A stretch of 64,000 nucleotides of DNA from Echinicola rosea. GTDB taxonomy: Bacteria > Bacteroidota > Bacteroidia > Cytophagales > Cyclobacteriaceae. The stretch spans positions 4,802,501 through 4,866,500 of the forward strand of contig NZ_CP040106.1 of the NCBI RefSeq assembly GCF_005281475.1, given 5' to 3'. Position numbers and translations under genes: made by a program. Shown piece by piece: positions 23,175 through 43,120 of this stretch. The notes under the pieces are model-generated. The model ran no database searches and was not told the origin of the DNA. It saw only the letters and a program-made list of their open reading frames with translations. The stretch's first letter is position 1. Each line of letters begins with the position of its first letter.

Positions 23175-25481
23175 TTAATCCTTGGAAAAAATCTTTTTAT
23201 TCGGCCTTCTTTTCATAATAAATGTCAATTTACCCCCTTTTATAATATCGGCATGCTGAATAAACGGCTCGCTCAGCACTTCCCCATTGAGGAGCACTTT
23301 GCTCACATACACATTTTCCTCCGATTGATTTTGGGCTTCCACGGTAAAAGTATTCCCATTTTCCAGGTTAATTGTCGCCTCTTTCACGAGAGGACTTCCC
23401 AAGGCATAGTCCACCGACCCGGGCGCAACGGGATAAAATCCCAATGCACTGAACAAGTACCAAGCACTCATCTGGCCGAAGTCATCGTTTCCTCCAAGCC
23501 CATCGGCACCGGTTTGGTACATGGCCCTCAGGATCATCCGAATTTTGTCCTGGGACTTCCAAGCCTGATCCGTCCAATTGTAAAGGTACACTACATGGTG
23601 TGACGGCTCGTTACCGTGCACGTAATTTCCGATAATGCCCTCCCGGGAAATGTCCTCGGTATTGGCAAAATACCTGTCAGGCAAATCCATACTGAAAAGG
23701 GAATCCAAATGCTCCACAAACCGCGTATCCCCTCCCATCATACCGATCATTTCCTTTGGTGCATGCGGTACATACAAGCTGTAGTTCCAGGCATTTCCTT
23801 CGATAAAACCCTGACCGTGAGTATCCAGTGGATCGAAACCTTGCTTCCAGGCTCCGTTCTTCAGCTTGGGACGCATAAAGCCTGATTGGTGATCAAATAC
23901 ATTTTTATAGTTCCCTGCACGATCCGCAAATTCTTGGGCAATTTCTTCCCTTCCTATTTTCGTAGCCATCTGGGCGATCGCCCAATCGTCATAGGCATAT
24001 TCCAGTGTTTTGGACACAGATGCTCCACTCACGTCCTCGGGTACATAGCCCTTCTCCATATAAGCTCCGATCCCATCAAAATAAGCGGTCTTAGCCGTGG
24101 TGACGGAAGCATTAAGGGCATGGTCCAAGTCGGACGTTACCGTTCCTTTGACCACCGCATCGGCAATGACTGAGGCACTGTGATAGCCGATCATGCACCA
24201 GTTTTCATTGGCATAATGTGACCATATGGGCAACATCGGATGGACACTCTGGTCAAAATGCGCCAGCATCGATTTTACCATATCACGGTTCCTAGCTGGC
24301 TGCAGCACGTTAAACAGCGGATGCAATGCCCGGTAGGTATCCCATAGAGAAAAACTGGTGTAATTGGTAAAACCTTCGGCCTCGTGTATATTCATGTCCA
24401 AGCCGCGGTATTTTCCGTCCACATCACCATAGACTGTTGGCCCCAAAAAGGCATGGTACATGGCCGTGTAGAAATTTACCTTATCCGTGTCTCGGATGGT
24501 GCTTACCTGCACCTTGTTCAATTCTTTGTTCCAACTATCTACCCCTGCTTGATGAATGGCATCGAAGTCCCACCCTGGAGTCTCTTCCTGCATGTTTTTG
24601 ATAGCTCCCTCCGTGCTTACAGGTGATATAGCCAACTTGGCGATTAGCTCATCACCGTCCTCTAGGTCAAAATCAAAATATGCCCTGATCTTCCTTCCTG
24701 CGATTTCGGGAAAATTCTCTGATTCGTTAAATCGCCCCCAAAAACCTCGATAGGCCTGCTTATCATCATATTTTTGATTGCCATATTTGGCGATCGGCTT
24801 GTCAAAGGAGAGCGCAAAAAACACTTTCCTGGTCCTCGCCCAACCTGTAGTCTCACGAAATCCAGTAACCAGCGTATCATTTTCGACACGCATAAACGTC
24901 CAGACATTCTTGTCATCATAATTGTAAATTCCGGACATAAGGTCCAAGATCACATGAGCATCTTCGCCTTCAGAAAAGGTATAACGGTGCACCCCTACCC
25001 TTGTAGTGGCGGTAAGTTCTGCGTTGATTCCATAATCGTCCAGCTCCACTTGGTAATAGGCCGGGGAAGCATTCTCACGATCATGGGAAAATCTCGAACG
25101 ATAACCCGAGTCAGGATCAGTTTCTGTACCAGGATTAAGCTGTAGAGGGCCACTGGTGGGCATCATTAAAAAATCGCCCAAGTCGGAGTGCCCCGTGCCA
25201 CTAAAATGTGTATGGCTAAAGCCAACAATCGTCACATCATCATACTGGTAGCCGGCACAATAACGGTACACTTCCGGATTATACCGGCCATTTACCTCGT
25301 AGGGAATCGTATCCGTATCAGGACTGAGCTGGACACTACCAAACGGAACCGTCGCCCCTGGGTAGGTGTGTCCCATTTTGGCCGTTCCGATCATCGGATC
25401 CACGTATTGGCTAAGGTCTTCTTGCGCTTGGACGCCCCAAGCCATGAAGCCCATAAGACTTGTTAATAGTATTTTTTTCAT
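23175..25481 (-). CDS. GH92 family alpha-mannosidase (copy b)
   Basis: Calcium-dependent exo-alpha-mannosidase of 768 residues, exported (signal peptide about 1-19, WGVQAQ). Family GH92 signatures are readable throughout: YVDPMIGTAKMGHTYPGATVPFG at the N-terminus, LEYAYDDWAIAQMA, HGNEPSHHVVYLYNW (about residue 620) and GGNDDFGQMSAWYLFSALGFYPV near the C-terminus. GH92 enzymes remove alpha-1,2, -1,3 or -1,4/6-linked mannose from N-glycans and mannan. The GNEPSHH segment differs from GNQPIQH in the second GH92 of this locus. A 228-bp gap separates it from the permease gene, so it may have its own promoter. Confidence 0.92.
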   Translation of the reverse strand: MKKILLTSLMGFMAWGVQAQEDLSQYVDPMIGTAKMGHTYPGATVPFGSVQLSPDTDTIPYEVNGRYNPEVYRYCAGYQYDDVTIVGFSHTHFSGTGHSDLGDFLMMPTSGPLQLNPGTETDPDSGYRSRFSHDRENASPAYYQVELDDYGINAELTATTRVGVHRYTFSEGEDAHVILDLMSGIYNYDDKNVWTFMRVENDTLVTGFRETTGWARTRKVFFALSFDKPIAKYGNQKYDDKQAYRGFWGRFNESENFPEIAGRKIRAYFDFDLEDGDELIAKLAISPVSTEGAIKNMQEETPGWDFDAIHQAGVDSWNKELNKVQVSTIRDTDKVNFYTAMYHAFLGPTVYGDVDGKYRGLDMNIHEAEGFTNYTSFSLWDTYRALHPLFNVLQPARNRDMVKSMLAHFDQSVHPMLPIWSHYANENWCMIGYHSASVIADAVVKGTVTSDLDHALNASVTTAKTAYFDGIGAYMEKGYVPEDVSGASVSKTLEYAYDDWAIAQMATKIGREEIAQEFADRAGNYKNVFDHQSGFMRPKLKNGAWKQGFDPLDTHGQGFIEGNAWNYSLYVPHAPKEMIGMMGGDTRFVEHLDSLFSMDLPDRYFANTEDISREGIIGNYVHGNEPSHHVVYLYNWTDQAWKSQDKIRMILRAMYQTGADGLGGNDDFGQMSAWYLFSALGFYPVAPGSVDYALGSPLVKEATINLENGNTFTVEAQNQSEENVYVSKVLLNGEVLSEPFIQHADIIKGGKLTFIMKRRPNKKIFSKD

Positions 25482-25709: not shown

Positions 25710-27119
25710 TCAACTCTCCTCTACCCGATACCCTTTCACACCATAAAATACGATATAAAGATAACAGGCCAAAGGCACTATAAAGGATAGCTGGACACTT
25801 CCTGTCAAGTCAGCCATCAATCCTTGCAATAGCGGAACAATTGCGCCACCTACAATGGCCATCACGAGCAATGAGGAGGCCTGTGCCGTATATTTCCCAA
25901 GGCCTTTGATCGCCAATGAGAAGATCGTGGGGAACATGATGGAATTGAACAATCCCAAGGCTACGATAGACCAGAGTGCCAATTGTCCGTCGGTCAGTAG
26001 GCCAATGATCAGCAACGCGATTCCCGTGATACCGAAGAGCCACAGGGTCCGGTTGGGAATAAATTGGCCAATGATGATCACCAAAATATTGAGTCCGATA
26101 AAGGCCAAGGCGTAAAGCGCCATTTCACTTCCATAAACATAATGAATGGTCACGTATGATATTGCCGAAATCCCGCCAATGATCAGGAAACGATTGAGGT
26201 TCTTTTTGAAATCGGCCAATGCTACCGCCCCAAAAAACCTTCCTACCATGGCTCCTCCCCAAAAGAGTGCCAGGTAATGGCTGGCTTCAGCTTCATCCAA
26301 TCCGGCTATTTCCGGTAACCGGGCGAAATTGATCAAATTACTTCCCACCGTTACTTCACCACCTACATAGGCAAAAATGGCCCCTATGCCCAGAAAAAGA
26401 TGGCGATGCTTTAATGCTCCACTATCTGAGATGATGACTCCCTGGGAACCAATTTCTGGCAATTTAAACATTTTGAAAATCATGGCGATCAACAATAAGG
26501 TCACAGCCAGGCCCACATAAGGCATTTTTACAGCGTCAGCACTGATATCTACCTCTCCAATGGTACCAAAAATAAGGTAACCACCGATCAAAGGCGCAAT
26601 CGTGGTCCCCAGTGAGTTAAAGGCTTGGGTCATGTTCAGGCGACTGGAAGCCCCAGAAGGCTTGCCCAAAATGGTCACGTAGGGATTGGCCGCAATCTGC
26701 AAAATGGTAATTCCCGAAGCCAACACAAACAAGGCAAATAGAAAAAAACCAAAACTCACCAAGCTGGCAGCTGGATAGAAAAACAGACAGCCCACTGCGG
26801 AAATCACCAAGCCCAGGATAATCCCGTTTTTATAGCCTATTCTGCCAATCGGATCCCCTTTGGTAATGGAGATCAAATAATACCCTAGGGAAATAAAGAA
26901 GTAAGCCCCAAAAAAAGCCGTCTGGATCAGCATGGCCTGCCAGTTTTGCAAGGTGAATACTTGCTGTAAATGGGGAATCAAAATATCGTTCATGCAGGTG
27001 ATAAATCCCCACATAAAAAACAGCATGGTGACCAAAAACAATGGCCCCAAATATTGCTGACCGGAATCAAATTCTACATTATTATCTTCGGTTTCTTTTG
27101 AAATGCTAACTGACGCCAT
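25710..27119 (-). CDS. FucP-type MFS sugar permease
   Basis: A 469-residue inner-membrane sugar:H+ symporter with 12 predicted helices. ATG 27119 (MASVSISKET) is preferred; an upstream TTG at 27185 would add 22 unlikely residues. Family features are FFMWGFITCMNDILIPHLQ in helix 1, QIAANPYVTILG, and NMTQAFNSLGTTIAPLIGG. The relatives are L-fucose and glucose/galactose permeases. In this locus, between a ROK kinase and GH92 genes, mannose is the likely substrate (inference). The gene lies 168 bp downstream of the kinase. Confidence 0.88.
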   Translation of the reverse strand: MASVSISKETEDNNVEFDSGQQYLGPLFLVTMLFFMWGFITCMNDILIPHLQQVFTLQNWQAMLIQTAFFGAYFFISLGYYLISITKGDPIGRIGYKNGIILGLVISAVGCLFFYPAASLVSFGFFLFALFVLASGITILQIAANPYVTILGKPSGASSRLNMTQAFNSLGTTIAPLIGGYLIFGTIGEVDISADAVKMPYVGLAVTLLLIAMIFKMFKLPEIGSQGVIISDSGALKHRHLFLGIGAIFAYVGGEVTVGSNLINFARLPEIAGLDEAEASHYLALFWGGAMVGRFFGAVALADFKKNLNRFLIIGGISAISYVTIHYVYGSEMALYALAFIGLNILVIIIGQFIPNRTLWLFGITGIALLIIGLLTDGQLALWSIVALGLFNSIMFPTIFSLAIKGLGKYTAQASSLLVMAIVGGAIVPLLQGLMADLTGSVQLSFIVPLACYLYIVFYGVKGYRVEES

Positions 27120-27206
27120 GGGCTTTTGAGTTATTGGGTTGAATGGTAAATTAAGTTTTTGGGACACAGTTTGATGTTTAGTCAATAGTCCACAGACTCG
27201 CTGGTA

Positions 27207-27287: not shown

Positions 27288-28169
27288 TTACTTATAATCT
27301 TCCTTTTGGACTTTCCAGCTACATGCTGCGCCGATCAGGGCCGCCTGCTCTCCCAATTCAGTAATTCTGATGGGCGTATCGAGGCCTGCACGGTCAAGTT
27401 CCTCCTTCACAATGGGCAGGAAAAGTTCTTCGGCTTTAGAAATATTCCCCCCAAGTACTATGACCTGGGGGGATTCTTTTTTAATAAAACCGATGAGAAA
27501 ACGCGCCAGATTTTCACCAAATTCCTTGAAAATATCTGCTGCATAGGCCCTGTTTTCTGGCTCTACAGTGAGCTCTCGGACTTCAGTTATAGCCCTACCG
27601 GTGTTTTTCTGGTAAGCTTCCACAAACCATCTCGTAGAGACATAGTCCTCCACTATACTTCCTTTAAATGGACTGCACCAGAGCGCGGCATCTTCGGCAA
27701 ATTCCCCATGATACCGGGAACTCCCCAGCCCCGTCCCAAGCGTCAGACCGATGGCATGATCATATGATCTAGCGGCACCACTGGCCACTTCACCCTGCAA
27801 AAAGCACGCAGCGTCATTTTCGAAGTGGATGCTTTCGGTATCACAGCCTAAAGCTTCTGCAAGCATTTTTTTCACTTCCAAGCCATACAAAGAGGTGTAT
27901 TTGCCTTGCTGCTCGATCAGTGAGACACCATTTGGGTAATCAAACGGCCCCGGCATCGCAATGCCGATCTTAAGGTGCTGCAGGGAATATCCCGGAATGG
28001 CCTCTATGGCCCTTTTCCATTCATCGATAATAGAGCCTGCACTACCGGAAGAATCCACCTCCCTTCTTACCAAAGAGGCCTCATCCAACACGTTCGTATC
28101 CAGGTCCACCAGTCCTGCGGTAATGTGAGACCCACCGATATCTATTCCTACTACATTTCTTTTGTTCAT
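27288..28169 (-). CDS. ROK-family sugar kinase of PUL A
   Basis: A 293-residue cytoplasmic kinase. ATG 28169 (MNKRNVVGIDIGGSHITAG) is chosen; the longer frame upstream overlaps the GH92 gene and lacks conservation. Readable motifs are VGIDIGGS, AMPGPFDYPNG, ENDAACFLQGE with the catalytic Asp, and LTLGTGLGSS. As in the kinase at 13909, the CxCGxxGC zinc cluster is absent. It lies 31 bp after the GH92a gene and 168 bp before the permease, so it probably phosphorylates the mannose released by the GH92 enzymes. Glucose is an alternative. Confidence 0.86.
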   Translation of the reverse strand: MNKRNVVGIDIGGSHITAGLVDLDTNVLDEASLVRREVDSSGSAGSIIDEWKRAIEAIPGYSLQHLKIGIAMPGPFDYPNGVSLIEQQGKYTSLYGLEVKKMLAEALGCDTESIHFENDAACFLQGEVASGAARSYDHAIGLTLGTGLGSSRYHGEFAEDAALWCSPFKGSIVEDYVSTRWFVEAYQKNTGRAITEVRELTVEPENRAYAADIFKEFGENLARFLIGFIKKESPQVIVLGGNISKAEELFLPIVKEELDRAGLDTPIRITELGEQAALIGAACSWKVQKEDYK

Positions 28170-28200
28170 CTGTGGTCGTTGCTCTTGTGTTGAACTGCCT

Positions 28201-30495
28201 TTATTCGTTGGAGAGTGAAAAAGGGAAGTCTGCTTTTTTAGTACCTCGCTTTTTGTTGGGAGTGGCTGACATATCAAAGTCCAGCAGGGCACCCTTCATC
28301 AGCTCCTTGTGGCTTAGCCAGTTCTTCGAGTAGCTTTTGCCATTTACCTTCAGCCCCTCAATGTATCGGTTTTCAGCACTGTTTTCAGGAGCACTGATCA
28401 CTATTTCTTCTCCATTTTGAAGCGAAAGGGTTACTTTCTTAAACAGTGGCGCACCGATCACATACTCGTCCGTTCCTGGACATACGGGATAGAAGCCCAA
28501 GGCAGAAAACACATACCAAGCAGAAGTCTGTCCATTGTCCTCATCACCGCAGTAGCCGTCTGGCGTAGGCATGTACATGCGGTTCATGGTCTCTCTCACC
28601 CAGTGCTGTGCTTTCCAAGGTTCTCCTGCATAATTGTACAAATAAATCATGTGCTGGATCGGCTGGTTTCCGTGGGCATACTGGCCCATATTGGCGATCT
28701 GCATCTCTCTAATTTCGTGGATCACGCCACCGTAATAGCTGTCATCAAACACTGGAGGCAAGGAAAAAACCTTGTCCAGCTGAGCCACAAACTCCTTCTG
28801 ACCGCCCATAAGGTCGATCAAGCCCTGTACGTCGTGGAAGACAGACCAGGTGTAATGCCAGCTGTTCCCTTCGGTAAAAGCATCTCCCCACTTGAATGGG
28901 TTAAAAGGAGCCATAAATTCACCATCCTTGTTCTTGCCCCGCATCAGCTTGGTTTCGGGATCATACAGCTTTTTGTAGTTAAAACTTCTTTGCTTGTACA
29001 GCTCAATTTCCTCTTTAGGCTTGTCCAAAGCTTTTGCCAATTGGTAGATGGTAAAATCATCGTAGGCATACTCCAGCGTTCTCGCAGCATTTTCATTGAT
29101 GCCTACATCATAAGGCACATAGCCCAATTCTTTGTAGTATTCTGCACCTGCACGTCCCACTGCGGTCAACGGACCGGCATTATTGGCGCCGTGGATCACG
29201 GCTTCATAAAGTGTCTCAATATCATAATCGTAGTCTCCTTCATATTTCAAGAAAGCATCAGCCACTACTGAAGCAGAATTATTGCCCACCATCACATTCC
29301 GCAGACCGGGGCTGGCCCATTCTGGCAACCAACCACTCTCCTTGTAGGCATTGGCAAGACCTTCCTGCATCTGGGCATTCAGTTCGGGATACATCAAGTT
29401 CAGGAAAGGAAACAATGAACGGAATGTGTCCCAAAAACCCGTATCGGTAAACATATAACCCGGCAGTACTTCACCATTATAGGGACTGTAGTGCACCACA
29501 TTGCCATCGGCATCGTATTCGAAGAATTTTCTTGGAAACAACAGTGACCGGTATAGGCAAGAATAAAAAGTCTCCATTTGATCTTGAGTACCACCAGAAA
29601 CGTCGATACGGCCGAGCTGCTCATCCCAGGTTTTTCTTCCTAGCGCTTTTAAGGCATCGAAGTCATGGTTTCCAATTTCCTGAAGGTTGATGGCAGCTTG
29701 TTCATAACTGATAAATGAGGAGGCCACTTTGGCATTCACCACTTCACCTTTGGCAGTCTTAAAGCCAATAACAGCTCCTGCGTGATTGGCATCTGCTTCA
29801 AGCGCATCCTGAAGGTTGCCGTCTTGGAAGGTCTTGTTAAAGGTAAATTCCTTATCAAATTCCACTACAAAATAATTGCGGAAATTATCCGGAACACCAC
29901 CGCTATTTCGTGTGGTATAGCCGATAATTTTATTTTCTTCCGGAAGAACCTTCACATATGACCCCTTGTCAAAAGCATCCAATACCACAAAAGCATCATC
30001 CGTTTCGGGAAAGGTAAATCGGAATCGGGCCGCTCTTTCTGTCGGTGTTATCTCAGTGGTCACATCATGGTCAGCGAGATAAACGCTGTAATAATACGGC
30101 GTCACCGTCTCCGCTTTGTGGGAAAACCAACTTTGACGTTCTTCTTCTTTAAACTTCGGTTCACCGGTCACCGGCATGATCGAGAATTGCCCATAATCAT
30201 TCATCCACGGGGATGGTTGGTGGGTTTGCTTGAAGCCTTTGATTTTGGTGGCATCGTACATGTACGCCCATCCGTCGCCCATCTTTCCGGTTTGGGGAGT
30301 CCAAAAATTCATCCCCCAAGGCATCGCAATAGCGGGATATACATTGCCATTGGATAAACTGTAATCGGAATCCGTACCCATCAGGGGTTTGGCGTAGTCC
30401 ACTGGATGATCCACTTTCTCGACAAGGTCAGACTGGCCATAAGCCGTCACGGCCAAGGTCATCATTGCCAAGGTTTTGGTCAAAAATGTCTTCAT
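28201..30495 (-). CDS. GH92 family alpha-mannosidase (copy a)
   Basis: Exported GH92 enzyme of 764 residues (signal peptide about 1-20, AVTAYGQ). It shows YAKPLMGTDSDYSLSNGN at the N-terminus and LEYAYDDFTIYQLA. HGNQPIQHMIYLYNY is at about residue 610 and GDEDNGQTSAWYVFSALGFYP near the end. It belongs to a different GH92 branch than copy b: identity looks limited outside motifs, and the GNEPSHH Glu is Gln here. This suggests another linkage or aglycone preference. It has its own promoter with a -7 box at 30589 and the shared 19-bp element at 30612. Confidence 0.92.
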   Translation of the reverse strand: MKTFLTKTLAMMTLAVTAYGQSDLVEKVDHPVDYAKPLMGTDSDYSLSNGNVYPAIAMPWGMNFWTPQTGKMGDGWAYMYDATKIKGFKQTHQPSPWMNDYGQFSIMPVTGEPKFKEEERQSWFSHKAETVTPYYYSVYLADHDVTTEITPTERAARFRFTFPETDDAFVVLDAFDKGSYVKVLPEENKIIGYTTRNSGGVPDNFRNYFVVEFDKEFTFNKTFQDGNLQDALEADANHAGAVIGFKTAKGEVVNAKVASSFISYEQAAINLQEIGNHDFDALKALGRKTWDEQLGRIDVSGGTQDQMETFYSCLYRSLLFPRKFFEYDADGNVVHYSPYNGEVLPGYMFTDTGFWDTFRSLFPFLNLMYPELNAQMQEGLANAYKESGWLPEWASPGLRNVMVGNNSASVVADAFLKYEGDYDYDIETLYEAVIHGANNAGPLTAVGRAGAEYYKELGYVPYDVGINENAARTLEYAYDDFTIYQLAKALDKPKEEIELYKQRSFNYKKLYDPETKLMRGKNKDGEFMAPFNPFKWGDAFTEGNSWHYTWSVFHDVQGLIDLMGGQKEFVAQLDKVFSLPPVFDDSYYGGVIHEIREMQIANMGQYAHGNQPIQHMIYLYNYAGEPWKAQHWVRETMNRMYMPTPDGYCGDEDNGQTSAWYVFSALGFYPVCPGTDEYVIGAPLFKKVTLSLQNGEEIVISAPENSAENRYIEGLKVNGKSYSKNWLSHKELMKGALLDFDMSATPNKKRGTKKADFPFSLSNE

Positions 30496-30588
30496 TATTT
30501 TGGTTATTTAGTTATTTGGTTATTTGCTATTCATGTATAGGGTGATCAGTATTTATCCATCCCTCCTGTCACATAATTGGCATTGTTA

Positions 30589-30596
30589 CAAATATA
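30589..30596 (-). promoter_or_regulatory. -7 promoter box of GH92a
   Basis: On the minus strand the sequence TATATTTG is an exact TAnnTTTG match, 93 bp before the ATG at 30495. The shared 19-bp element lies 15 bp upstream of it, where the -33 element would be. Confidence 0.6.
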
Positions 30597-30611
30597 TTAT
30601 CTAAACGTTAA

Positions 30612-30630
30612 AAAGCTAAACCCTTTTAGT
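30612..30630. promoter_or_regulatory. Candidate operator, copy 1
   Basis: AAAGCTAAACCCTTTTAGT is identical to 35971-35989 upstream of the susC gene. It contains a palindrome CTAAA-CCCT-TTTAG. It overlaps the expected -33 region of the GH92a promoter. The LacI-type regulator encoded at 36549-37583 is the likely binder (inference). Confidence 0.65.
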
Positions 30631-30848
30631 TTTTATTTTTGATTAATTTTCAGGGCATCATATGGTCATCATCCGAACGCGATCAAAATCTCGTCACTGA
30701 AAAGTATAGGGTGGAACGCGGAGAGGATTGGAAGGATTACTGCAAAGGTCTCCGCTACGGCTATCAAATCCGGGATAACGACGGATCAAGGGTAAAAGTT
30801 GGGGATTGGGAGTTTAGTAATTGGCAAAACCACGGAAAAACAAAAAAA

Positions 30849-30937
30849 TGCCACCAAGTTCCTAAGGCACTAAGTGCATGTTTATCCTGCATGGAAAGGA
30901 ATACATAATTGCTTTGTGCCTGGGAGCCTTGGTGGCA
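30849..30937. repeat. Inverted pair of the dispersed GCCAC repeat
   Basis: TGCCACCAAG-TTCCTAAGGCAC (30849-30870) is matched in reverse by 30916-30937, whose complement is TGCCACCAAG-GCTCCCAGGCAC. The right arm with its neighbour AATTGCTTTG (from 30907) recurs at 44551-44585. The pair forms a 22-bp imperfect stem. Confidence 0.65.
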
Positions 30938-31047
30938 TATGATTGTTCCGGTAACTAAATTGACCTACTCACAGAAGTATTGCTTGATCCAAAATGACGC
31001 CAAACCGTGCATTCAAGGGCAATTTCGGTAGGTTCTTTAGTGACAAA

Positions 31048-31129
31048 AAAGCCACAGACACACAGATCGTAGATGAGCAGCGGTGCTTTTGGGGCTACTT
31101 CCATCATTTATCTGTGAATCCGTGGCTTT
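31048..31129. repeat. Inverted repeat, AAAGCCAC...CACAGAT arms
   Basis: AAAGCCACAGACACACAGAT (31048-31067) is complementary to ATCTGTGAATCCGTGGCTTT (31110-31129) at 17 of 20 positions. It lies 34 bp after the susD stop codon and could act as terminator or mRNA stabiliser. Confidence 0.6.
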
Positions 31130-31162
31130 ACTATAATTTGTTGTGTTCCTTATCCTGACCGT

Positions 31163-32791
31163 TTATTGGTTATAGCCAGGGTTTTGCTCTAGGTTAGGAT
31201 TAAGGGCCGTTTGAACGTGAGGAATCGGAAACAACTCCTTATTGGGGTCGTTAGTAGCCTCATGATCCCACCAGCTTCCTTGGGTAAAATCACCAAAGCG
31301 GATCAGGTCTGTCCTTCGCTTGCCCTCGAAGATAAACTCTCTGCCACGCTCTGCGAGCAGTTCCTCTAGCGTCAGCGTAGAAGTAGTGTACATCGCATCC
31401 GCCCAGTCAGCATCGGTAAATGCGCGCTGCCTGCTGGCATTGATCAGGTCCACCGCTTCCTGTGTGGCCATACCTCCATTTTGGCGCAAAATTGCCTCCG
31501 CTTTGTTGAAGTACAGCTCAGTCAATCGGTAAATGATGTAGTCATTTTCCCAGTAATTTTCATCATCCTTGGTGCCAGACCGGTATTTATTGAAGCGTGC
31601 TCCACTGTTTTCCTCTCCTTCGGTCATGCTGCCTTCTCCAGTAGCCCCTTCACTGTTTCTCCGGATGGTATTCACATACTCCAAAGGCTGGCCATCATAT
31701 TCTTCTGTACCAAGTATAGGCTCTTCGGTTCCGTACTTATATTGTGTCCCAAAGAGGAACCATTCCTGCTTTCTGAGGTCATTTTCCTGATAAGCATCAA
31801 AAGCTGAAGGAATCACCACAAAAGCATTCCAGCCACTGAAAGTAACATCCCATACTTCAGAAATATTGCTATAGCCCACATAGAATCCTCCCCAATTAAA
31901 CTCAAAGCCACCTTTTCGGCTAAAAGCAAACTGGAAGATATTTTCAGGAGACATATGGTTGGTATTGTTAAATGGCCCCAAAATATCAGGGTCCAGCTCC
32001 ATGGTGCCCGTAAGACTTCCTCCCTCACCATCTATGACCTTATCACTGTATTCGATACACTTATCATACATCGCTGTCCCAGCCCATTTTTCGGCATTCA
32101 GGTAAAGCTCCGAAAGCATGGCATAACCTGCTGCCTTGGACACTCGACCTACCATCTCTTGCGACAGCGGCTGCAGCAGCTCCACATTGTCCAACAACTC
32201 CTGCTCTACAAAAGCAAAGACTTCTTGTCTGGTGGCCGTTGGTGGATTGATGGGCTCTCCCACTGTGGTCACGATAGGTACATTGCCCCACATGTCCATA
32301 ATTTTCAGATAGTGGTATGCATGCATAACCCTTAGCTCTGCTAAAATGGAGGCCTTATCGTCCGAGGTCATTCCTATGCTTTCAAAATTAAGCTCTTCCA
32401 TATCTGCAATTACTGCATTTACATAGCCTAATCCTTCCCACATCAATGCCCATGAACCTCTCAACCTTGGCTCTTGGGAAGTCCAAGTATGGTAATGCAA
32501 CCTGATATGGTCTCCTCCATCATATCCATGACGACCTTTCTGAGGCCAAGCTACTTGATCTGCGGCCATTTCACCGTGATAATAGTAGCCGCTCTGCCCG
32601 GTAGGCGCTAACCAGGCCTGCATATGGGTAAACGGCCGAAGCACTCCTTCCATCACCTCTGTTTCATTGCTATAGAAGCTGTCTTTTGTTAGTTCATTAT
32701 AGACAGTTTCATCCAAATCCATACAGGATACCGTTCCCAATATCGCTGCAGGAGCAAGTATTCCTACTATTTTATTGATATATTTTTTCAT
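31163..32791 (-). CDS. SusD/RagB-type glycan-binding lipoprotein (PUL A)
   Basis: Outer-membrane surface lipoprotein of 542 residues that captures glycan and lids the partner SusC pore. The lipobox TVSC gives a lipidated Cys23 after a 22-residue signal. N-terminal TPR-like helices contain ATRQEVFAFVEQELL and KAAGYAMLSELYL. The C-terminal end RGREFIFEGKRRTDLIRFGDF is the SusD/RagB signature, and it finishes LNPNLEQNPGYNQ. Its gene starts 12 bp after the susC stop, as expected for a pair. Confidence 0.93.
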   Translation of the reverse strand: MKKYINKIVGILAPAAILGTVSCMDLDETVYNELTKDSFYSNETEVMEGVLRPFTHMQAWLAPTGQSGYYYHGEMAADQVAWPQKGRHGYDGGDHIRLHYHTWTSQEPRLRGSWALMWEGLGYVNAVIADMEELNFESIGMTSDDKASILAELRVMHAYHYLKIMDMWGNVPIVTTVGEPINPPTATRQEVFAFVEQELLDNVELLQPLSQEMVGRVSKAAGYAMLSELYLNAEKWAGTAMYDKCIEYSDKVIDGEGGSLTGTMELDPDILGPFNNTNHMSPENIFQFAFSRKGGFEFNWGGFYVGYSNISEVWDVTFSGWNAFVVIPSAFDAYQENDLRKQEWFLFGTQYKYGTEEPILGTEEYDGQPLEYVNTIRRNSEGATGEGSMTEGEENSGARFNKYRSGTKDDENYWENDYIIYRLTELYFNKAEAILRQNGGMATQEAVDLINASRQRAFTDADWADAMYTTSTLTLEELLAERGREFIFEGKRRTDLIRFGDFTQGSWWDHEATNDPNKELFPIPHVQTALNPNLEQNPGYNQ

Positions 32792-32803
32792 GATTTCCTC
32801 GCT

Positions 32804-35800
32804 TTAAAATCCAACTTTTAGGCCCAACGCAAATGATTTTGTTCGAGGGTAAAATCCCCTACCATCTATACCGGTGTTCAGCCCAACATCTTGTAACTCA
32901 GGATCTATACCAGAATAGCCTGAAATAGTCAACAAGTTTCGCCCTGTGGCGTACACCCTCAGATTCCTGAAATACTGACTGTTCAGTTCAAAATTATAAC
33001 CCAATGTTATATTATCCAGCTTCACAAAACTTCCGTTTTCTAAATAGTAATCCGAGTACTGCGGATCGTCATCGAGTTCGGCGTGGGTAGTGATCGCACT
33101 TTCTAACAGGTTATTTGGTAGCCATTTCATGTTACCGAAATACATCTCCTTGGTATTTAGAATATCAAAGCCAAATTTCCCTCTGAAGAATATGGAAAGG
33201 TCAAAATTCTTATAAGTAAACGTATTGTTCAATGAAGCCATATACTTCGGAACACCGTTACCGATGACCGTAAGGTCTTCTGTGGTCATGTCCTCGGCTT
33301 CCCCAATCGAACCATCTGCTTTGTAAAATTGCCACTTGCCATCTTCGGAAAATCCTGCAAACCGTTTTCCATAAAAGTTCCCGATAGGACCGCCATCTTC
33401 TATCCTAATGGCATTTCCAAGATTTCCGGGACTTGGCAAACCTCCCTCTTCAATCCATGAAATCGTAAAGACATCATTGGAAAGTGACGTTACTTTATTT
33501 CGTTGGGTATTGGCAGTAAGATCAGCTCTCCAGCTAAAGTCCGTATTCTTTATTATGGTAGAAGTCAGGTAAAGCTCAATCCCTCTATTGTTGATACTAC
33601 CAACGTTCGTCAATAGATTATTCTTGGCATATGCTGGCTGTTGGGAGGTATATTCATAAAGTAAATCTACCGTTTCCCTATTGTACAAATCAAGGGAACC
33701 ACCTAGCATGTTATTGAACAATAAAAAGTCAAACCCTAAATTCCATTCTTTCTTCTTTTCCCATCTCAAATCGGGGTTCGGGTTTCTTGACAGACCATAA
33801 GTTTGATAATAAACCCCTTCCTGAGGATATACCCCGCCTTCAGAAAGCGTGATCAACGACTGGTAATTATCTATTCCTTGGTTTCCGGTAACCCCATAGC
33901 CCAACCTCACTTTTAAGTTGTTTACCGCTGAACTATTAGCGAGGAAACGCTCTTTGGTCAATTCCCAACCTACGGATACCGCTGGGAAATTTCCCCACTT
34001 ATGGTTGGCACCAAACCGAGAAGAACCTTCTCTTCTTAGGGTCGCTTGCACAAAATACTTTTCTTGGAATGCATAACTCGCTCTTGCAAAAAAGGCTATC
34101 AAGGTATTGTCTTCTTTAAAACTATCCATCCCTGGACGAGGAAGTTGTGTATTATTAATAGCACTACCTGCGCTCAGGTTCCAATCGAGAAAGCCATCCG
34201 TCGTAAAGCCATTATTGTTGACATTGAACTCTTCTGTTGTAAAGTACTGGTAACTGTAACCGACGATGGCATCAAACGAATGATCGGTATTGAATATCTT
34301 CTTATAGTTTAGGGTACCTTCGAAGGTGTTGGACCAATCCAGGTGATTGAACTTAGAAGCATAGCCCATCCCTTGGTATTCAGATGTGGGACGGTTGGCG
34401 AAGTCATTCATCGACTGGTAATACCGGTCATTGTAATTGTTCCTGATATAGGCACCAAAAGCGGAAGCTTTCAGCCCATCGATGATTTCATAGGTCAACC
34501 GCACATCCCCCGAAAAGGTGGACTTGTTCCGTTCATCGATCCGATTGGCATAGCGGGAAAGGGGATTGTAATTGTTATAGGCTTGCGTCTCTACATATGA
34601 ACCATCGGGGTTAAAAATAGGAGCTGTGGGGTTTCGCTGAATGGCCTGCTCAAAGTCCCCACCTTGTCCACCTAGCCTGTTGGCATCACTGAAGTTGACC
34701 GCAAGGTTGGATGCCAAGGTAAGTTTGTCCTGAAATCCCGTCTGACTAAAGCTAACCCGGCCACCAAATTGTTTATTACTGTTTTCCTGCGCAATTCCCT
34801 CGGCACCATTATAATAAAACGAAGCCCTGTAAGTGGAATTTTCGCCACCACCGGAAGCAGCAAAATTATGGTACTGGCTAAGGTTCTGCTTGTTCAGCAA
34901 TCGATCATACAAGTCTGTGGAGCTACCCAGGTCATTACCTTCCTCGATCAAGCCTTGGTCGATCAGGCCACGATATTGGTCTGCTGTAAGAAAATCAGGT
35001 TTCCTGTCCACATATTCCCGTTGGAAATAGGTCGAATAATCAAATCGGGATTCTCCCGCTTTTCCTTTTTTGGTAGTGATGAGAATTACCCCGGCATTGC
35101 CTCGGGTACCATAGATGGCCGCAGCAGAACCGTCTTTCAGTACATCAAAGGAAGCAATATCATCCTGCTGAAGCAGGTCCAAACTCCCTCCGGGAATACC
35201 ATCGATAACAATCAATGGACTGGTCGTGCCCACTAAAGAGGTCAAGCCCCTCAACTGGATATCCGTAGATCCATTGGGATTGTTTCCTTGAGGTCGATTG
35301 ATGTTAAGGCCGGCCACTTTACCTTGGATCAGCTCCATCGGTGAACGCATACCGCCCTGTACAAAGTCATCTTCCTCGACATTGGCCACCGCAGAAGTAA
35401 TCTCCCGCTTCTTTTGAGATCCATAGCCGATCACCACAAATTCCTCCAGAGATTCCGTATCGGAAGTCATCTCCACATCCAAGGTCGATTGGCCGCCCAC
35501 AGGAACTTCCTGGCTCGCCATTCCGATAAAGCTAAAGACCAACACCGCCTCATCGGAGGCTACGTTGATCTTATACTTGCCGTCCAGGTCTGTCACGGTA
35601 CCATTGGTTGTACCTTTTTCTAAAATGGAAACGCCCGGAAGAGGCTCTCCCGATTCATCGGTCACGACACCGGTCACTTCCTTAGCTGTGGTTTGAAAAA
35701 ACGAAACACCATCTGCGGCGCCCGCTTCACCTGCTACAAAAACTGCTTCTTCCGCCTGTGTGGCGGAGCTGATTGCTCCTGAGAATAGCATCATTAAAAC

Positions 35801-35875
35801 GCCTCCTCTCAATGTGCGAAAGCCAATACTGCTGCTGCCGCCAAAGCGACTGACAGCTGGTAACTTTTCTTTCAT
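32804..35875 (-). CDS. SusC/RagA-type TonB-dependent transporter (PUL A)
   Basis: Outer-membrane TonB-dependent glycan importer of 1023 residues. The signal region is long (about 1-42, ending ATQAEE). A carboxypeptidase-like regulatory domain follows (GVVTDESGEPLPGVSILEKGT). The plug carries the SusC motif FVVIGYGSQKKREITSAV and AAIYGTRGNAGVILITTKKG. The barrel ends in LGLKVGF with a terminal Phe, as the BAM machinery requires. No STN domain is present, so it is not controlled by FecR signalling; the LacI regulator upstream fits instead. With SusD it probably imports mannose-rich oligosaccharides. Confidence 0.93.
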   Translation of the reverse strand: MKEKLPAVSRFGGSSSIGFRTLRGGVLMMLFSGAISSATQAEEAVFVAGEAGAADGVSFFQTTAKEVTGVVTDESGEPLPGVSILEKGTTNGTVTDLDGKYKINVASDEAVLVFSFIGMASQEVPVGGQSTLDVEMTSDTESLEEFVVIGYGSQKKREITSAVANVEEDDFVQGGMRSPMELIQGKVAGLNINRPQGNNPNGSTDIQLRGLTSLVGTTSPLIVIDGIPGGSLDLLQQDDIASFDVLKDGSAAAIYGTRGNAGVILITTKKGKAGESRFDYSTYFQREYVDRKPDFLTADQYRGLIDQGLIEEGNDLGSSTDLYDRLLNKQNLSQYHNFAASGGGENSTYRASFYYNGAEGIAQENSNKQFGGRVSFSQTGFQDKLTLASNLAVNFSDANRLGGQGGDFEQAIQRNPTAPIFNPDGSYVETQAYNNYNPLSRYANRIDERNKSTFSGDVRLTYEIIDGLKASAFGAYIRNNYNDRYYQSMNDFANRPTSEYQGMGYASKFNHLDWSNTFEGTLNYKKIFNTDHSFDAIVGYSYQYFTTEEFNVNNNGFTTDGFLDWNLSAGSAINNTQLPRPGMDSFKEDNTLIAFFARASYAFQEKYFVQATLRREGSSRFGANHKWGNFPAVSVGWELTKERFLANSSAVNNLKVRLGYGVTGNQGIDNYQSLITLSEGGVYPQEGVYYQTYGLSRNPNPDLRWEKKKEWNLGFDFLLFNNMLGGSLDLYNRETVDLLYEYTSQQPAYAKNNLLTNVGSINNRGIELYLTSTIIKNTDFSWRADLTANTQRNKVTSLSNDVFTISWIEEGGLPSPGNLGNAIRIEDGGPIGNFYGKRFAGFSEDGKWQFYKADGSIGEAEDMTTEDLTVIGNGVPKYMASLNNTFTYKNFDLSIFFRGKFGFDILNTKEMYFGNMKWLPNNLLESAITTHAELDDDPQYSDYYLENGSFVKLDNITLGYNFELNSQYFRNLRVYATGRNLLTISGYSGIDPELQDVGLNTGIDGRGFYPRTKSFALGLKVGF

Positions 35876-36548
35876 TTAACTTTGGGTTTTAGGTTATCAA
35901 TTAACTCTCAGGCCCTTGTACAAAATCGACCATTTTTTTAAACGACCGATTTTTCCAAAAATCCTGTTATAAAGCTAAACCCTTTTAGTATAAAAGCAAA
36001 GTCGATTTAGTCCTACGTAGTCTTACTAAATTTTTGGTTCATAAAAATAACGTCCAAATACGGACAGAAAAAAACCTTTGAAATACCTTAAAATTCAATT
36101 CGTATAGTTAGTCCAGATGTACAATTTCATCTATTTAAAATAATAAAACATAAACCATCAACTTTATACATCAGATTATCGCATTGGTTAAAAAAATATT
36201 TAAAAATCACTTGTTTCATTAAAAATGAGTAAAATCAGACCATCTAATAGGATTTTTTTGCTTAAAAAAAGTTAAAAAACTCAACCATACTAAGTAATTA
36301 AAAGACTAAAGAAATATTAGTTTCACTAAAAAATAATATTCTATAGATTTTAAATTTAAAAAAATCAAAAAAAGTCGACCATATTTACATCACCCAGTTT
36401 ATTAACCATTACATCATAAACACAAAATATACATAGGGGAAAGGTTGGGAAAATAATCATGGAGAGGTATCATAATAGGCTTAGGGAAACAACGACTAAA
36501 ACAATCCCAAAGCCCCCTTCAATGAAATCAAAATAGCCACTATAGTGG
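35876..36548. promoter_or_regulatory. Long AT-rich promoter region of PUL A
   Basis: No gene. It separates susC from the upstream LacI gene, both on the minus strand. It holds the 19-bp element (35971-35989) and an ATTTAGT...ACTAAAT inverted repeat (36005-36031) around a CTACGTAG palindrome. A third pair, ACTAA...TTAGT, is at 36305-36321. A CCACTATAGTGG hairpin (36537-36548) abuts the lacI-type stop codon. No exact TAnnTTTG box was found on the minus strand near susC. Confidence 0.55.
35971..35989. promoter_or_regulatory. Candidate operator, copy 2
   Basis: Same 19 bases as 30612-30630, located 96-114 bp before the susC ATG. The two copies lie at similar distances from their genes and both sit in PUL A. 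Confidence 0.65.
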
Positions 36549-37583
36549 TTACTTCTTGGATCTATTGGTGGACTCCCTTTCTTTTAGTGACGCTTGCAAG
36601 ACGATTTTATTGGCTTCCCTTTCTCCTTGAGGGGTATTGATGGATTGGAGCATGGATTGGATAAGACTTCTGGCGATCTCCTCCTTTGGCTGAACGATAC
36701 TGGATACCGAAGGCGTATTGAATTTGAAGAACTCATTGTCATCAAAAGCAATCACAGCGAGATCGTCGGGAATCTTCTTCCCCATTTGCTTAATGACTTG
36801 CATTCCCTTCATGGCCAAATAATTGGTGGCAAAGAACACTGCTTCCAAATCCCCATTTGATTCAAAATATGCCGTCATGGCATCCTCTGTCTCTTTTGAC
36901 GAGTAAGTATCATAAGGAATTTCCAAAATTTGCTCATCAATTCCCTCTTTGTTACACATCTGGATATAGGCTTCCCTCCTGTCATGCATCTGTGACTGAT
37001 CGGAATCAATGGTCACAAAACCTATTTTTCTCAAACCATTTTCCAAGAACAAATCCAGCCCTTGCTTGGCTCCTTGGAAATTATCGATCACCACATAACT
37101 GCAATCCACCTCCGGCAGGTACCGGTCAAAAAGGATCAGTGGATTCCGGTCCCTGGAAAGCTCTGACAAAAAACCTGCGTCCATCCCCACTGGCGGGGTA
37201 AGGATATACCCGTCCACTTGCAAATCCCTAAACATACTGATCAGCCCCATGGTCTTAGCGGGATCATTGTTGGTACTGGAATAAATAATCTTGTACCCAT
37301 CCTTGAAGGCCCGATCTTCGATCATTTTTGCTATTGTTGCAAAAAAGGGATTGGAAATATCCTCCACCATAAAAACGATGATATTGGACTTCCCAGTCCT
37401 GAGACTCTTGGCCAATTGACTGGGTTGATAGCCGATTTTCTTCACATAGGCCTGCACCTTATCGATCAGCTTCTGACTGATCCTGTTTTCTTCGGCTTTG
37501 CCATTCAACACAAATGAAACGGTGGTAACTGAAATATTCAGCTCCTTCGCAATGGCTTTAATGGAATGTTTCTTTTTCTGCAT
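36549..37583 (-). CDS. LacI-family transcriptional regulator
   Basis: A 344-residue DNA-binding regulator. The N-terminal LacI helix-turn-helix is about residues 6-27 (SIKAIAKELNISVTTVSFVL), followed by the hinge YQPSQLAKSLRTGKS. The periplasmic-binding-protein-like sensor domain includes IVFMVEDISNPFF and DLAVIAFDDNEFFKF. It stands directly upstream of the susC gene of PUL A in the same direction, so it is the obvious candidate regulator of that locus, responding to a sugar such as mannose. Most LacI proteins repress, but some relatives activate. Start ATG 37583, with a -7 box at 37645. Confidence 0.92.
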   Translation of the reverse strand: MQKKKHSIKAIAKELNISVTTVSFVLNGKAEENRISQKLIDKVQAYVKKIGYQPSQLAKSLRTGKSNIIVFMVEDISNPFFATIAKMIEDRAFKDGYKIIYSSTNNDPAKTMGLISMFRDLQVDGYILTPPVGMDAGFLSELSRDRNPLILFDRYLPEVDCSYVVIDNFQGAKQGLDLFLENGLRKIGFVTIDSDQSQMHDRREAYIQMCNKEGIDEQILEIPYDTYSSKETEDAMTAYFESNGDLEAVFFATNYLAMKGMQVIKQMGKKIPDDLAVIAFDDNEFFKFNTPSVSSIVQPKEEIARSLIQSMLQSINTPQGEREANKIVLQASLKERESTNRSKK

Positions 37584-37858: not shown

Positions 37859-39463
37859 TTAGTTCCCTGGATCCCACCAGGTAGTGGTCGTCCAAGTATT
37901 TCCCCCCATATTTGAAATCGCATCGTTCAGGTTTTGAGGATTGGTGGTCCCTTCTGATGAAGGGTAAATCTGTCTTCGTGGAATTTCACCATTGGAGAAG
38001 TTTCCGGTATAATTTACCGGGGTAAGCACCGGGTACCCGGAACGCTTCCAGTTGTTCCATGACTCCACAAAATTGGCCAGCAGTCCAGTAGTGGCCCATA
38101 TTTGCTCGTTGATCATCATCATGGCACTTTCTGTGGAGCTCATATCCAATGGATTGGCCGCTACATAGGCACTTGCATCACTACTGGAAACAGCCCCACC
38201 ACCGAACTTGCCAATGGTGGTCATGGCTCCCAGCACTCCGTTTTCATAATGCTCGGCCGCCGTTCCCGGCACACTGTATCCTCTCAGGGCCGCTTCGGCA
38301 AGCAAAAGCTGCACCTCTGCATACGTCAAGAAGAAAATAGGGGCATCCCTGTCACGGTAGATTCCAGTTGGTCTGGAATATTGCCCGATAGGGGCCACAT
38401 CACCACCTGTACCTGTGCTACCGGGATAGTTTGGCTCGGTGGTAATGTCGGTGGACCCGCCTCTAAGGTCGTATCCATTGGGCATTCCGATCTGATCAGC
38501 GGGATCATTGTTTCCTACTACATTTCCGTTCCTGTTGGCTGTCAATCCTGCTGGTGGCACTTCTGCGATTACAGGCAATCGAGGATCGTCCGAAGCTTGG
38601 AGAAAATCGATCATGGTCTTTGACCAGCGTACTTCGTAGATATCATCCTGCACGTTCAAGGCATTTGCACTGGAATTTGAATAACCATTGTCCTGATCAG
38701 AAAACATCAAGGATTCATCCGCAGGAGAATCAAACACCCCTCCGGCCACTGCCTTTTCCACATAACTTTGTGCAGATGCAGGATCCACCTCTACCATTCG
38801 CATGGCCATTTTTAACATCAGCGAATAACCGAACTTTTTCCACATCGCTATATCTCCACCATAAATCACATCATTGGTGATCTCATCACTGCCCGTGCCC
38901 AAAGAATTGATCGCATTTTCGAGATCCGCCAACATGCTCATGTACACATCAGACTGTCCATCGTAACTAGGCTGGGTAAGGCCTTCTCCTCCCTGCAAGG
39001 CCTCGCTATAAGGAATGTCTCCATAAATATCCGTAACAAAGGACAAGGTCATCACCTTCATGATATCTCCCGCCGCAACAAGATTGGTCAAGCCTTTTTC
39101 CATCGCCAACTGTTGCATCTGATTGATCCTGGAAGAAGCTTCATAACCTAAGTTCCAGACCCCTTGGATATAATTATTGGTACTACCGGAAATGACGTAT
39201 TTATCGGCATTGGAGTAATAATTGGCGCCGCCGGTGGAGGTAGAAGCAAGCACTTGTACCCACATACTTTGAAACAAGATTGACCCCGTATAGCCGGTCA
39301 CCATATTCCCGTAGTTGTAAGATACTGTAGGCAAAATCAAGTTGGGATCAAATAGACCACCATCAGCCCTGTTGGGGTCAGTATTGATTTCTTCAAAATC
39401 TCCATCACAGCCGGTAAAAGCCACAAACAAGCCTACCAGCATTAAACTTATATATCTTTTCAT
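37859..39463 (-). CDS. SusD-like (SusD/RagB type 2) lipoprotein (PUL B)
   Basis: A 534-residue surface lipoprotein; lipobox FTGC with Cys19. The opening CDGDFEEINTDPNRADGGLFDPNLILP and GDIPYSEALQGG match the SusD-like_2 group rather than classic SusD. That group often pairs with SusC proteins for unknown or peptide-like substrates. The C-terminus carries NWKRSGYPVLTPV and a final TTTTWWDPGN. Its ATG lies 2 bp after the susC stop. No enzyme gene accompanies the pair. Confidence 0.88.
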   Translation of the reverse strand: MKRYISLMLVGLFVAFTGCDGDFEEINTDPNRADGGLFDPNLILPTVSYNYGNMVTGYTGSILFQSMWVQVLASTSTGGANYYSNADKYVISGSTNNYIQGVWNLGYEASSRINQMQQLAMEKGLTNLVAAGDIMKVMTLSFVTDIYGDIPYSEALQGGEGLTQPSYDGQSDVYMSMLADLENAINSLGTGSDEITNDVIYGGDIAMWKKFGYSLMLKMAMRMVEVDPASAQSYVEKAVAGGVFDSPADESLMFSDQDNGYSNSSANALNVQDDIYEVRWSKTMIDFLQASDDPRLPVIAEVPPAGLTANRNGNVVGNNDPADQIGMPNGYDLRGGSTDITTEPNYPGSTGTGGDVAPIGQYSRPTGIYRDRDAPIFFLTYAEVQLLLAEAALRGYSVPGTAAEHYENGVLGAMTTIGKFGGGAVSSSDASAYVAANPLDMSSTESAMMMINEQIWATTGLLANFVESWNNWKRSGYPVLTPVNYTGNFSNGEIPRRQIYPSSEGTTNPQNLNDAISNMGGNTWTTTTWWDPGN

Positions 39464-39465
39464 GA

Positions 39466-42400: not shown

Positions 42401-42564
42401 ATAAAGACATTTACGCCCGGAATGGGCTCACCACTATCTGCATCGGTCACCGTACCAGAAACGGTCTTGGCCTGGGATGCATTTGTAATTGATTGGTTTT
42501 GGGCCATTATCGACTGCCCTCCAACCAACACCATGAAAAACATGGCAAGTAGAATTTTTCTCAT
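39466..42564 (-). CDS. SusC/RagA-type TonB-dependent transporter (PUL B)
   Basis: Outer-membrane importer of 1032 residues from ATG 42564 (MRKILLAMFFMV); a GTG 33 bases upstream is less likely because the signal peptide begins at the ATG. The signal (about 1-22, ending IMAQ) is followed by a carboxypeptidase-like domain (VSGTVTDADSGEPIPGVNVF). The plug has GEVVVTALGISKEKEKLGYSV and ALYGSRASNGVILITTKAG. Barrel segments end in the typical aromatic-polar strand FNLNFKLN. No STN domain is present and no regulator is adjacent, so its control is unknown. Confidence 0.92.
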   Translation of the reverse strand: MRKILLAMFFMVLVGGQSIMAQNQSITNASQAKTVSGTVTDADSGEPIPGVNVFIKGTTTGTSTDLDGKYTLTNIPENASLVYSFIGYTSQEMAVKGKSTIDIALSQDAEELGEVVVTALGISKEKEKLGYSVTEVGSEALDQARETNVANSLAGRVAGLVVKGTSSGPGGTSKITLRGLPSISGTGSPLYVINGIPMDNTQRGSAGQWGGSDNGDGIGNLSPDDIESMTVLKGQAASALYGSRASNGVILITTKAGKKGGDWTLNYTMNFMAEQAVDFTDFQDVYGQGTGGQKPTTASDAQTTGRLAWGAMMDGSQVIGFDGNNYPYSPASENYIDFYRTGTNFTNTVSVSKGLGDDGSFRLSFSNLDANSIVPNSGMDRKTINLNVDQNITDKLNVTAMVNYVNQLSTNIPFLSDGPRNPNNFLFLAPNIDHNIFAPGFNPDTGAETVFSDDIYVTNPYFITEKGINDLERNRTISALSAKYSFTPEIYAMVRLGNDVSNDKVNTVEPYGLAYTADLQGALNNRGQSTRSELNIDGILGAVVDLTEDIELDALAGVNMRKNKFESIGLSGSRFVLPYLYSPFNTEIFNRNNNTLQYEEREVHSAYYSLGFGYKDFLTLTTTGRYDVYSTLNPENNSIFSPSVTLAFVFDRLLNIDAMDFGKFRASYAVTSGEPTQAYQTQFYYSSENPFNGIPAGSAPLSIPNQDLKPFTTDEVELGVDLSFFKNRLSFDVAYFTKTTHDEIMNATYSITSGFNSGVVATGSVSNKGLEVLVSGIPVQTSKFSWNTSVNMTSVKNEVLSTGPDNNPITLGQNRATLGNAVTAFVVGESGPQIRAFDYAYNEDGSVMVDDSGLPVQGELKNWGSVLPTFYGGWNNTLTYNGISFSFLIDYSFGNKVLSATEYYSTWRGLHQRTLEGREGGVTTDGSTATAEDYYKALAQNVTSTSVVDGDFIKLRQLTLGYSMPEKWFANTPVIKGLNVSLVARNLAILMRHAENIDPEASFGSNINFTGIEGTSLPSTRSYGFNLNFKLN

Positions 42565-43120
42565 ACGAAAACAGGGTTTTAGGTAAGGATTAAGCACTTT
42601 AATTAACTTAGAAATCTCATATTATGGCAAAACAAAAAAACGCATTACCACAAAACTCGATCACCTCGACATCAATACTTCAACACCACCAATAAAGTTA
42701 TTACAAACGGATAAATACCAGTTTATACCCGATTATAACCTTTATAAACGGTCATTGAATTGCCTTTACTAAAGATAGGAAATTGAAAACAAATTCAAAA
42801 TAGACATTTGTTTTTTTTGATTTCAATAACATAAAAAACCATTTTTTAATATATTTAAAACATATTTCTTGCATTTTTTACATTAATAATAAAATATAAA
42901 ACTATTTTTTTGTTCAACTAGCTTCAAAAAATAGATTACAATCCGTGCTGATCACACCCTATTATTAAAAATTCCCCTAAAAAAAACTATAAAACCATTT
43001 AGCAATATTCTTTTTTGCCATCAAATCAAATTGGAACGGTTTTAGCTTCTGCTTCTCTAGCATACGATTAACCCCGTATCACACAACCAACCTATTATTA
43101 ATTTATTAACTACAGAAGAC
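42565..43120. other. AT-rich divergent intergenic region
   Basis: No gene is supported. The region serves as the upstream region of PUL B (minus) and of the DUF6600-like gene (plus). Long A and T tracts fill 42780-43000. No exact TAnnTTTG box was found on either strand. Confidence 0.45.

Follow-up and report, generated by a model that had tools for sequence, protein, structure and literature searches.

A predicted operator of a LacI-family regulator at three promoters in Echinicola, one of them unlinked to its utilization locus

Introduction

Two genes of a polysaccharide utilization locus (PUL A) in Echinicola rosea, a member of a marine Bacteroidota genus, are preceded by the same 19-nt element, AAAGCTAAACCCTTTTAGT on the plus strand, which raises the question of which protein reads this element and which promoters it controls. 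The locus lies in a stretch of 64,000 nt (the window) of a genome with 6,064,527 bases in one contig. An earlier note on this DNA proposed that the LacI-family regulator encoded at the locus uses this element as its operator, and that it defines a regulon of two promoters. Comparison of 11 Echinicola genomes supports the operator well and does not support a regulon of two promoters only; a third, unlinked promoter, that of a sugar dehydrogenase operon, carries the site in all 11. Overall, the 19-mer is very probably the operator of the adjacent LacI protein, which is predicted to repress at least three promoters and to be released by a sugar.

Results

The 19-mer occurs at 30612-30630 and 35971-35989 with zero mismatches, confirming the two exact copies noted before, and the 6.06-Mb genome holds no third. 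When up to three mismatches are allowed, a scan of the window returns those two only (shuffled sequences give a mean of 0.05 matches, n = 100, and none gives two). Across the whole genome, two further places match with three mismatches, and the 19-mer read backwards, as a control, matches eight places with up to three. The check for many unrelated copies therefore favours an operator. Both downstream genes, susC (a SusC/RagA TonB-linked protein; 32804..35875, minus strand; TIGR04056) and GH92a (an alpha-mannosidase-family glycoside hydrolase; 28201..30495, minus strand; PF07971, TIGR01180), are encoded on the minus strand, where the 19-mer reads ACTAAAAGGGTTTAGCTTT; the earlier reading was of the plus strand. 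From the end of the 19-mer there are 95 bases to the susC ATG and 116 bases to that of GH92a, so the 100-130 bp given earlier was roughly right. The copy upstream of susC is here called O1 (35971..35989, minus strand; 14-bp core 35975-35988), and the identical copy upstream of GH92a O2 (30612..30630, minus strand; 14-bp core 30616-30629). The core had been described as palindromic, which holds for its arms, CTAAA and TTTAG, and fails for the four centre bases, CCCT. As looked for in an operator, an even-length palindrome (14-16 bp) is found upstream of the target genes.

The LacI-family gene, correctly placed at the locus by the earlier note, lies directly upstream of susC (36549..37583, minus strand). 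Its 344-aa product contains both a helix-turn-helix and a periplasmic-binding-protein-like sensor domain (PF00356, 35.3 bits against a cut-off of 27; PF13377, 96.5 bits against 26.5). Of the models for named LacI subfamilies, 18 in NCBIfam match the protein and none reaches its cut-off, the best by E-value scoring 187.9 bits against 382.

The element is conserved together with this regulator. The Echinicola set consists of the window's genome and 10 congeners; in each of the 10 congeners, 19 kb around the LacI gene were read. A LacI orthologue is present in 10/10 congeners (76-95% identity) and PUL A in 9/10, each of the nine having a CTAAA-N4-TTTAG site upstream of susC and another upstream of GH92a. 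Both sites are thus kept in all 10 Echinicola PUL A loci, and this check also favours an operator. All 20 of these PUL sites keep the arms, AAAG on one flank and, in a scan that put no constraint on the centre, CC there as well; the sole variation within the 14-base core is in the two bases beside CC. In the alignment of susC upstream regions from 10 genomes, the site is the most conserved 14-base window, with 13/14 columns invariant; in that of GH92a (10 genomes), the window on the site ties with one on the -7 box, each having 13/14. Across the upstream alignments 12-15% of columns are invariant overall, and the rows of G001 (susC) and G005 (GH92a) were excised around the site itself, which aids their alignment there. 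In G001, moreover, SusC and SusD have been replaced (33% and 32% identity to the window's proteins) and the operator is kept.

A search of the 11 Echinicola genomes with the pattern CTAAANCCNTTTAG yielded 43 matches, of which 20 belong to the PUL promoters and 11 to the dehydrogenase promoter, with 12 elsewhere. The dehydrogenase-promoter site is present once per genome, 119-183 bp before an operon that encodes a 580-aa GMC oxidoreductase, of the type of flavin adenine dinucleotide (FAD) sugar dehydrogenases, and a small partner of 236-237 aa. In E. rosea, where the domains were tested, about 3 Mb separate the site (G000:C1:1720540-1720553) from PUL A, and the GMC domains (PF00732, N-terminal; PF05199, C-terminal) and the adjacent PF13618 (Gluconate_2-dh3) all score above cut-off. 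Among solved structures, those that score best against the 580-aa protein are of glucose and fructose dehydrogenases (PDB 6a2u, 8xcm and others). The N-terminus of the small partner, MNRRENLKLL, is a possible twin-arginine signal, by which this protein may be exported. In the alignment of dehydrogenase upstream regions from the 11 genomes, the site is again the most conserved 14-base window (12/14 columns invariant), in a region where 49/380 columns are invariant overall.

The tenth congener, G002, has no SusCD at the locus, and it retains the LacI gene (76%), the ROK kinase gene, a remnant of GH92a and the dehydrogenase site. The remnant is a decayed 3′ fragment at L050:12271-13019, between the LacI and ROK kinase genes.

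The positions of the sites were compared with the Bacteroidota promoter consensus, TTTG/TAnnTTTG (PMC6847099). For susC, the candidate -7 box, TAGCTTTA (35970..35977, minus strand), overlaps the 3′ half of O1, its first three bases being the end of the palindrome, and a candidate -33 TTTG (35997..36000, minus strand) lies 19 bases before it. Nine of 10 Echinicola genomes have TAGCTTTA; the box of G005, and of 3/3 loci in a sister genus, is TAGCTTTG, a full TAnnTTTG; TTTG at the -33 position is found in 8/10 Echinicola promoters. This overlap would explain why the 19-mer extends beyond the palindrome at one end, where the AAAGC flank is kept. The G at -10 speaks against the susC box as placed; PMC6847099 describes the -7 boxes of Flavobacterium johnsoniae as having virtually no G at either -10 or -9. 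For GH92a, the perfect TAnnTTTG box reported by the earlier note was recovered as TATATTTG (30589..30596, minus strand), 19 bases past the palindrome of O2, and the same box and spacing recur in 9/9 congeners with PUL A (10/10 Echinicola genomes with the window's own); O2 would therefore cover the -33 region of this promoter. At the dehydrogenase promoter, TATATTTC or TATCTTTC lies 15-16 bases past the palindrome in 10/11 genomes, and TATATTCC does so in G002. Read on the gene strand, the PUL sites have a GG centre and the dehydrogenase sites a CC centre, and in 30/31 sites the order of the outer bases is A...C. The sites lie over the candidate -7 box (susC) or the -33 region (GH92a, dehydrogenase), and their placement suggests repression that is relieved by a sugar.

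Outside Echinicola, the site follows the regulator into a sister genus (g62), where 3/8 genomes have a LacI orthologue (59-62%) that, in a 42-protein tree, joins the Echinicola proteins with full support. In these three genomes the site is found before susC in 3/3 (centre GG in one, GC in two), before GH92a in 0/3, and before the dehydrogenase, with a CC centre, in 2/3 (G173, G195); in the five g62 genomes that lack the orthologue it is found in 0/5. A wider survey covered 400 bp before 39 dehydrogenase loci in 36 non-Echinicola genomes, counting a site if its arms were intact, or if it had one arm mismatch and a CC, GG or CG centre. Five of the 39 loci have a site: those of G173 and G195, with the LacI orthologue, and those of G109, G158 and G077, from two further genera. 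In the latter three, the dehydrogenase operon is divergent from the SusC gene of a PUL with SusD, GH92a (72-74% identical) and ROK genes, and operator-like sites lie between them. The other 34 loci are siteless; they consist of one in G139 (g62) and 33 in 30 genomes that have no orthologue in the 59-95% range and no PUL seen in the flank, of which 1.5 kb was covered. In one of these 33, L164, there is a site whose arms have two mismatches.

More distant regulators appear to be accompanied by related sites. Many loci of LacI homologues at 41-48% identity hold sites with the same arms, mostly with one mismatch and a CG or CC centre, before SusC or between the LacI and ROK genes; at L113 (G132), the stretch that separates the gene of a LacI homologue (46%) from SusC, in a GH92 PUL, holds two perfect CG-centred sites. 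A paralogous LacI subfamily in other genera (L107, L108, L110, L111, L115, L116, L173, L174) has a one-mismatch site before SusC and another between the LacI and ROK genes. A rule by which hinge residues set a CC or a CG centre was considered, since the hinge reads AKSLR in Echinicola, whereas many relatives with CG sites have AQSLR; it was rejected, as L058 has AKSLR and a CG site in its locus.

Discussion

As a family, GH92 points to alpha-mannosides, and the genes of PUL A would fit together as an uptake and breakdown pathway under two of the three promoters. Besides susC, the first would serve susD (31163..32791, minus strand; PF07980). Downstream of the second, on the minus strand, are GH92a; the gene of a ROK-family sugar kinase, 3′ of GH92a (27288..28292; its listed start overlaps GH92a, and its true start is probably later); that of an MFS sugar transporter of the gluP/fucP type (25710..27185; TIGR01272); and GH92b, a second GH92 enzyme (23175..25481; TIGR01180). 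The genes 3′ of GH92a presumably share its transcript. In the proposed mechanism, a LacI dimer would bind the palindrome, which on the gene strand has the form ACTAAA-N-SS-N-TTTAGC, and would block RNA polymerase at susCD through an operator over the -7 box, and at both GH92a-ROK-MFS-GH92b and the GMC dehydrogenase with its small partner, which lie about 3 Mb apart, through an operator over the -33 region. The effector would be a sugar, perhaps mannose or a mannobiose, that is freed from a glycan of the alpha-mannoside type, and release of LacI would switch on uptake, hydrolysis, phosphorylation and oxidation together. The sequence of the element, its conservation, its placement and its co-occurrence with the regulator are observed; binding, repression and the direction of control, like the effector and the substrate, are inferred from them.

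Several observations weigh against this picture. The LacI gene's own promoter has no site in the 11-genome alignment, only a conserved TTATATTTG (with a single one-mismatch form, in G002), and autoregulation is reported for 72% of the LacI-family factors studied in PMC4052901. The centre is CC/GG in 20/20 Echinicola PUL sites, and GC in two of the sister-genus susC sites, instead of the usual CG. The Echinicola congeners are related, so that 11 of 11 does not amount to 11 independent events. In the sister genus, the dehydrogenase site is missing from G139, a genome with both the LacI orthologue and a site at the PUL. G077 has the PUL and a site with no LacI gene in the 27 kb read, a 46% homologue being encoded on another contig; its site may be read by another protein. 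Further, the scan found no such site in ten homologue loci (L040, L052, L053, L057, L059, L060, L109, L118, L120 and L171).

Could a different regulator own the sites, either a LacI paralogue or an unrelated factor, while the adjacent LacI protein controls something else? The E. rosea genome encodes other LacI homologues (38-39% identity to the PUL A protein), and both the siteless LacI promoter and the site of G077, which has no linked LacI gene, point in this direction. Against it, the site tracks the orthologue: in all 14 genomes with this LacI gene (11 Echinicola, three of the sister genus), PUL A or the dehydrogenase is preceded by at least one site, and none of the 33 dehydrogenase loci in the 30 genomes with neither orthologue nor PUL seen in the flank has one. 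Moreover, even-length palindromes are typical of LacI-family factors (PMC4052901), and variants of these arms are frequent in the homologue loci at 41-48%; ownership by another regulator is therefore unlikely. We consider it very unlikely that the LacI protein acts as an activator at these promoters, as some members of the family do at some of theirs, since the operators overlap a candidate -7 box or -33 region and do not lie upstream of them.

For the third target alone, the 11 dehydrogenase sites could go back to an ancestral match that arose by chance and persisted in a slowly diverging region, as the congeneric genomes and the siteless G139 would allow. The region, however, has diverged at most of its columns (49/380 invariant) and its best-conserved window is the one on the site; two of the three orthologue-bearing genomes of the sister genus have the site; linkage of the operon to a GH92 PUL is seen in two further genera; and by our own arithmetic from the 12 background matches in 11 genomes, the chance of a match in a given 200-bp stretch is about 4 in 100,000 per genome. 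A chance origin is accordingly highly improbable. Action of the palindrome as RNA, through a terminator-like hairpin followed by T residues and attenuation, is scarcely credible. On the GH92a gene strand, CTTTTT does follow the palindrome and the predicted hairpin has a folding energy of -4.0 kcal/mol, but the susC and dehydrogenase sites reach just -1.0 kcal/mol each, the z-scores of the three hairpins are -1.3, 0.6 and -1.6, and a terminator scan of the window from 30400 to 36600 lists neither copy. The sites also lie before or within the candidate promoter elements and so would not be transcribed from those promoters. The terminator reading was rejected for its weak folding and the outcome of the scan.

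The predicted operator of the LacI protein can be compared with the LacI-family regulons of Ravcheev et al. (2014; PMC4052901). Like those regulons, it involves a protein of the LacI/Peripla_BP_3 type, an even palindrome and a few target operons around one sugar pathway. In that study, 1251/1303 factors have even palindromes, of which 1173 have a CG centre, 49 another pair and 29 a degenerate one; by comparison, the Echinicola regulon differs in its CC/GG centre and in having no site at its own promoter. The Echinicola sites lie about 80-190 bp before the start codons, and more than 75% of those in PMC4052901 at 30-140. Bacteroides is there a single taxonomic group, and in the main text 'cytophag' occurs zero times. 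The alpha-mannan PULs of Bacteroides thetaiotaomicron (PMC3878776) likewise place a regulator beside SusCD and mannosidase genes and have a motif-defined regulon. Their control, however, is by hybrid two-component systems and ManR, of the GntR family, and the hybrid systems use direct-repeat sites, whereas the Echinicola site is a palindrome. In the table of that paper, the LacI-family regulators KdgR, UxaR, UxmR and UxuR serve uronates. Judged against PMC4052901, LacI regulons as such are known; the operator, its CC centre, the siteless regulator gene and the unlinked dehydrogenase target are new. No published account of a regulon joining this LacI protein, PUL A and the dehydrogenase was found by title or abstract, in a search whose coverage excludes most subscription papers.

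GMC-type FAD sugar dehydrogenases are known with a small partner, as is the case here. The 580-aa protein is GMC-type like the large subunits of bacterial FAD glucose and fructose dehydrogenases (PDB 6a2u, 8xcm), but unlike them it is encoded under the same operator as a PUL. The operator would tie this unlinked dehydrogenase to the use of alpha-mannosides. More tentatively, and with considerable doubt, oxidation of a mannose-type sugar by the GMC enzyme may be a built-in step of the GH92 PULs of this bacterial family: the operon, which lies about 3 Mb away in Echinicola, would once have been PUL-adjacent as in G109, G158 and G077 and would be held in the regulon by its operator, and the oxidised product, instead of the free sugar, could be the LacI effector. 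G002 offers a natural case, in which the regulator has been kept after most of the PUL was lost, probably because it still has another target. A defined operator also makes regulon membership readable from sequence for a PUL-linked LacI regulator.

Further gene clusters and matches

A second SusCD pair lies upstream of the LacI gene on the same strand (window 37859-42597). It has no match to the 19-mer within three mismatches, is clearly orthologous in just four of the nine congener PUL A loci (G003, G004, G010 and G005), and seems to be outside the LacI regulon. About 120-140 kb from PUL A (L061 and L121, G000:C1:4953000-4980000), a second mannan-type cluster encodes GH92, GH125, GH76-like, ROK and SusCD proteins; the parts of it that were read hold no CC-centred operator match.

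The CTAAANCCNTTTAG pattern read backwards gave 36 matches against 43 real ones, and 36 against 2 in the G002 search. At face value, the total number of matches is not raised; in our view this control is a poor null, because words with CTA and TAG are rare, and the 12 non-core matches were used as background instead. Nine of these were read (L064, L070, L072, L073, L075, L076, L078, L079, L081; G006:3707313, G008:3484922 and G008:4278461 were left out): one is in coding frame, five precede genes resembling extracytoplasmic function (ECF) sigma factors, and two precede a SusC-like gene.

A CG-centred form, CTAAANCGNTTTAG, occurs once each in 8/11 Echinicola genomes (L137-L144; in E. rosea at G000:C1:4961004-4961017), shortly upstream of a gene for a protein of 197-204 aa, which is an ECF sigma factor by Pfam in the two tested of the eight loci (L138, L139). 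As further LacI targets these sites were considered, and no link to the PUL A regulator was found. The two three-mismatch places of the E. rosea genome are not counted in the regulon; one is the CTAAANCGNTTTAG site, and the other is also before an ECF sigma gene. The non-core CC-centred matches in L072, L078 and L079 precede sigma-factor-like genes, and so do the like-placed ones in L073 and L081.

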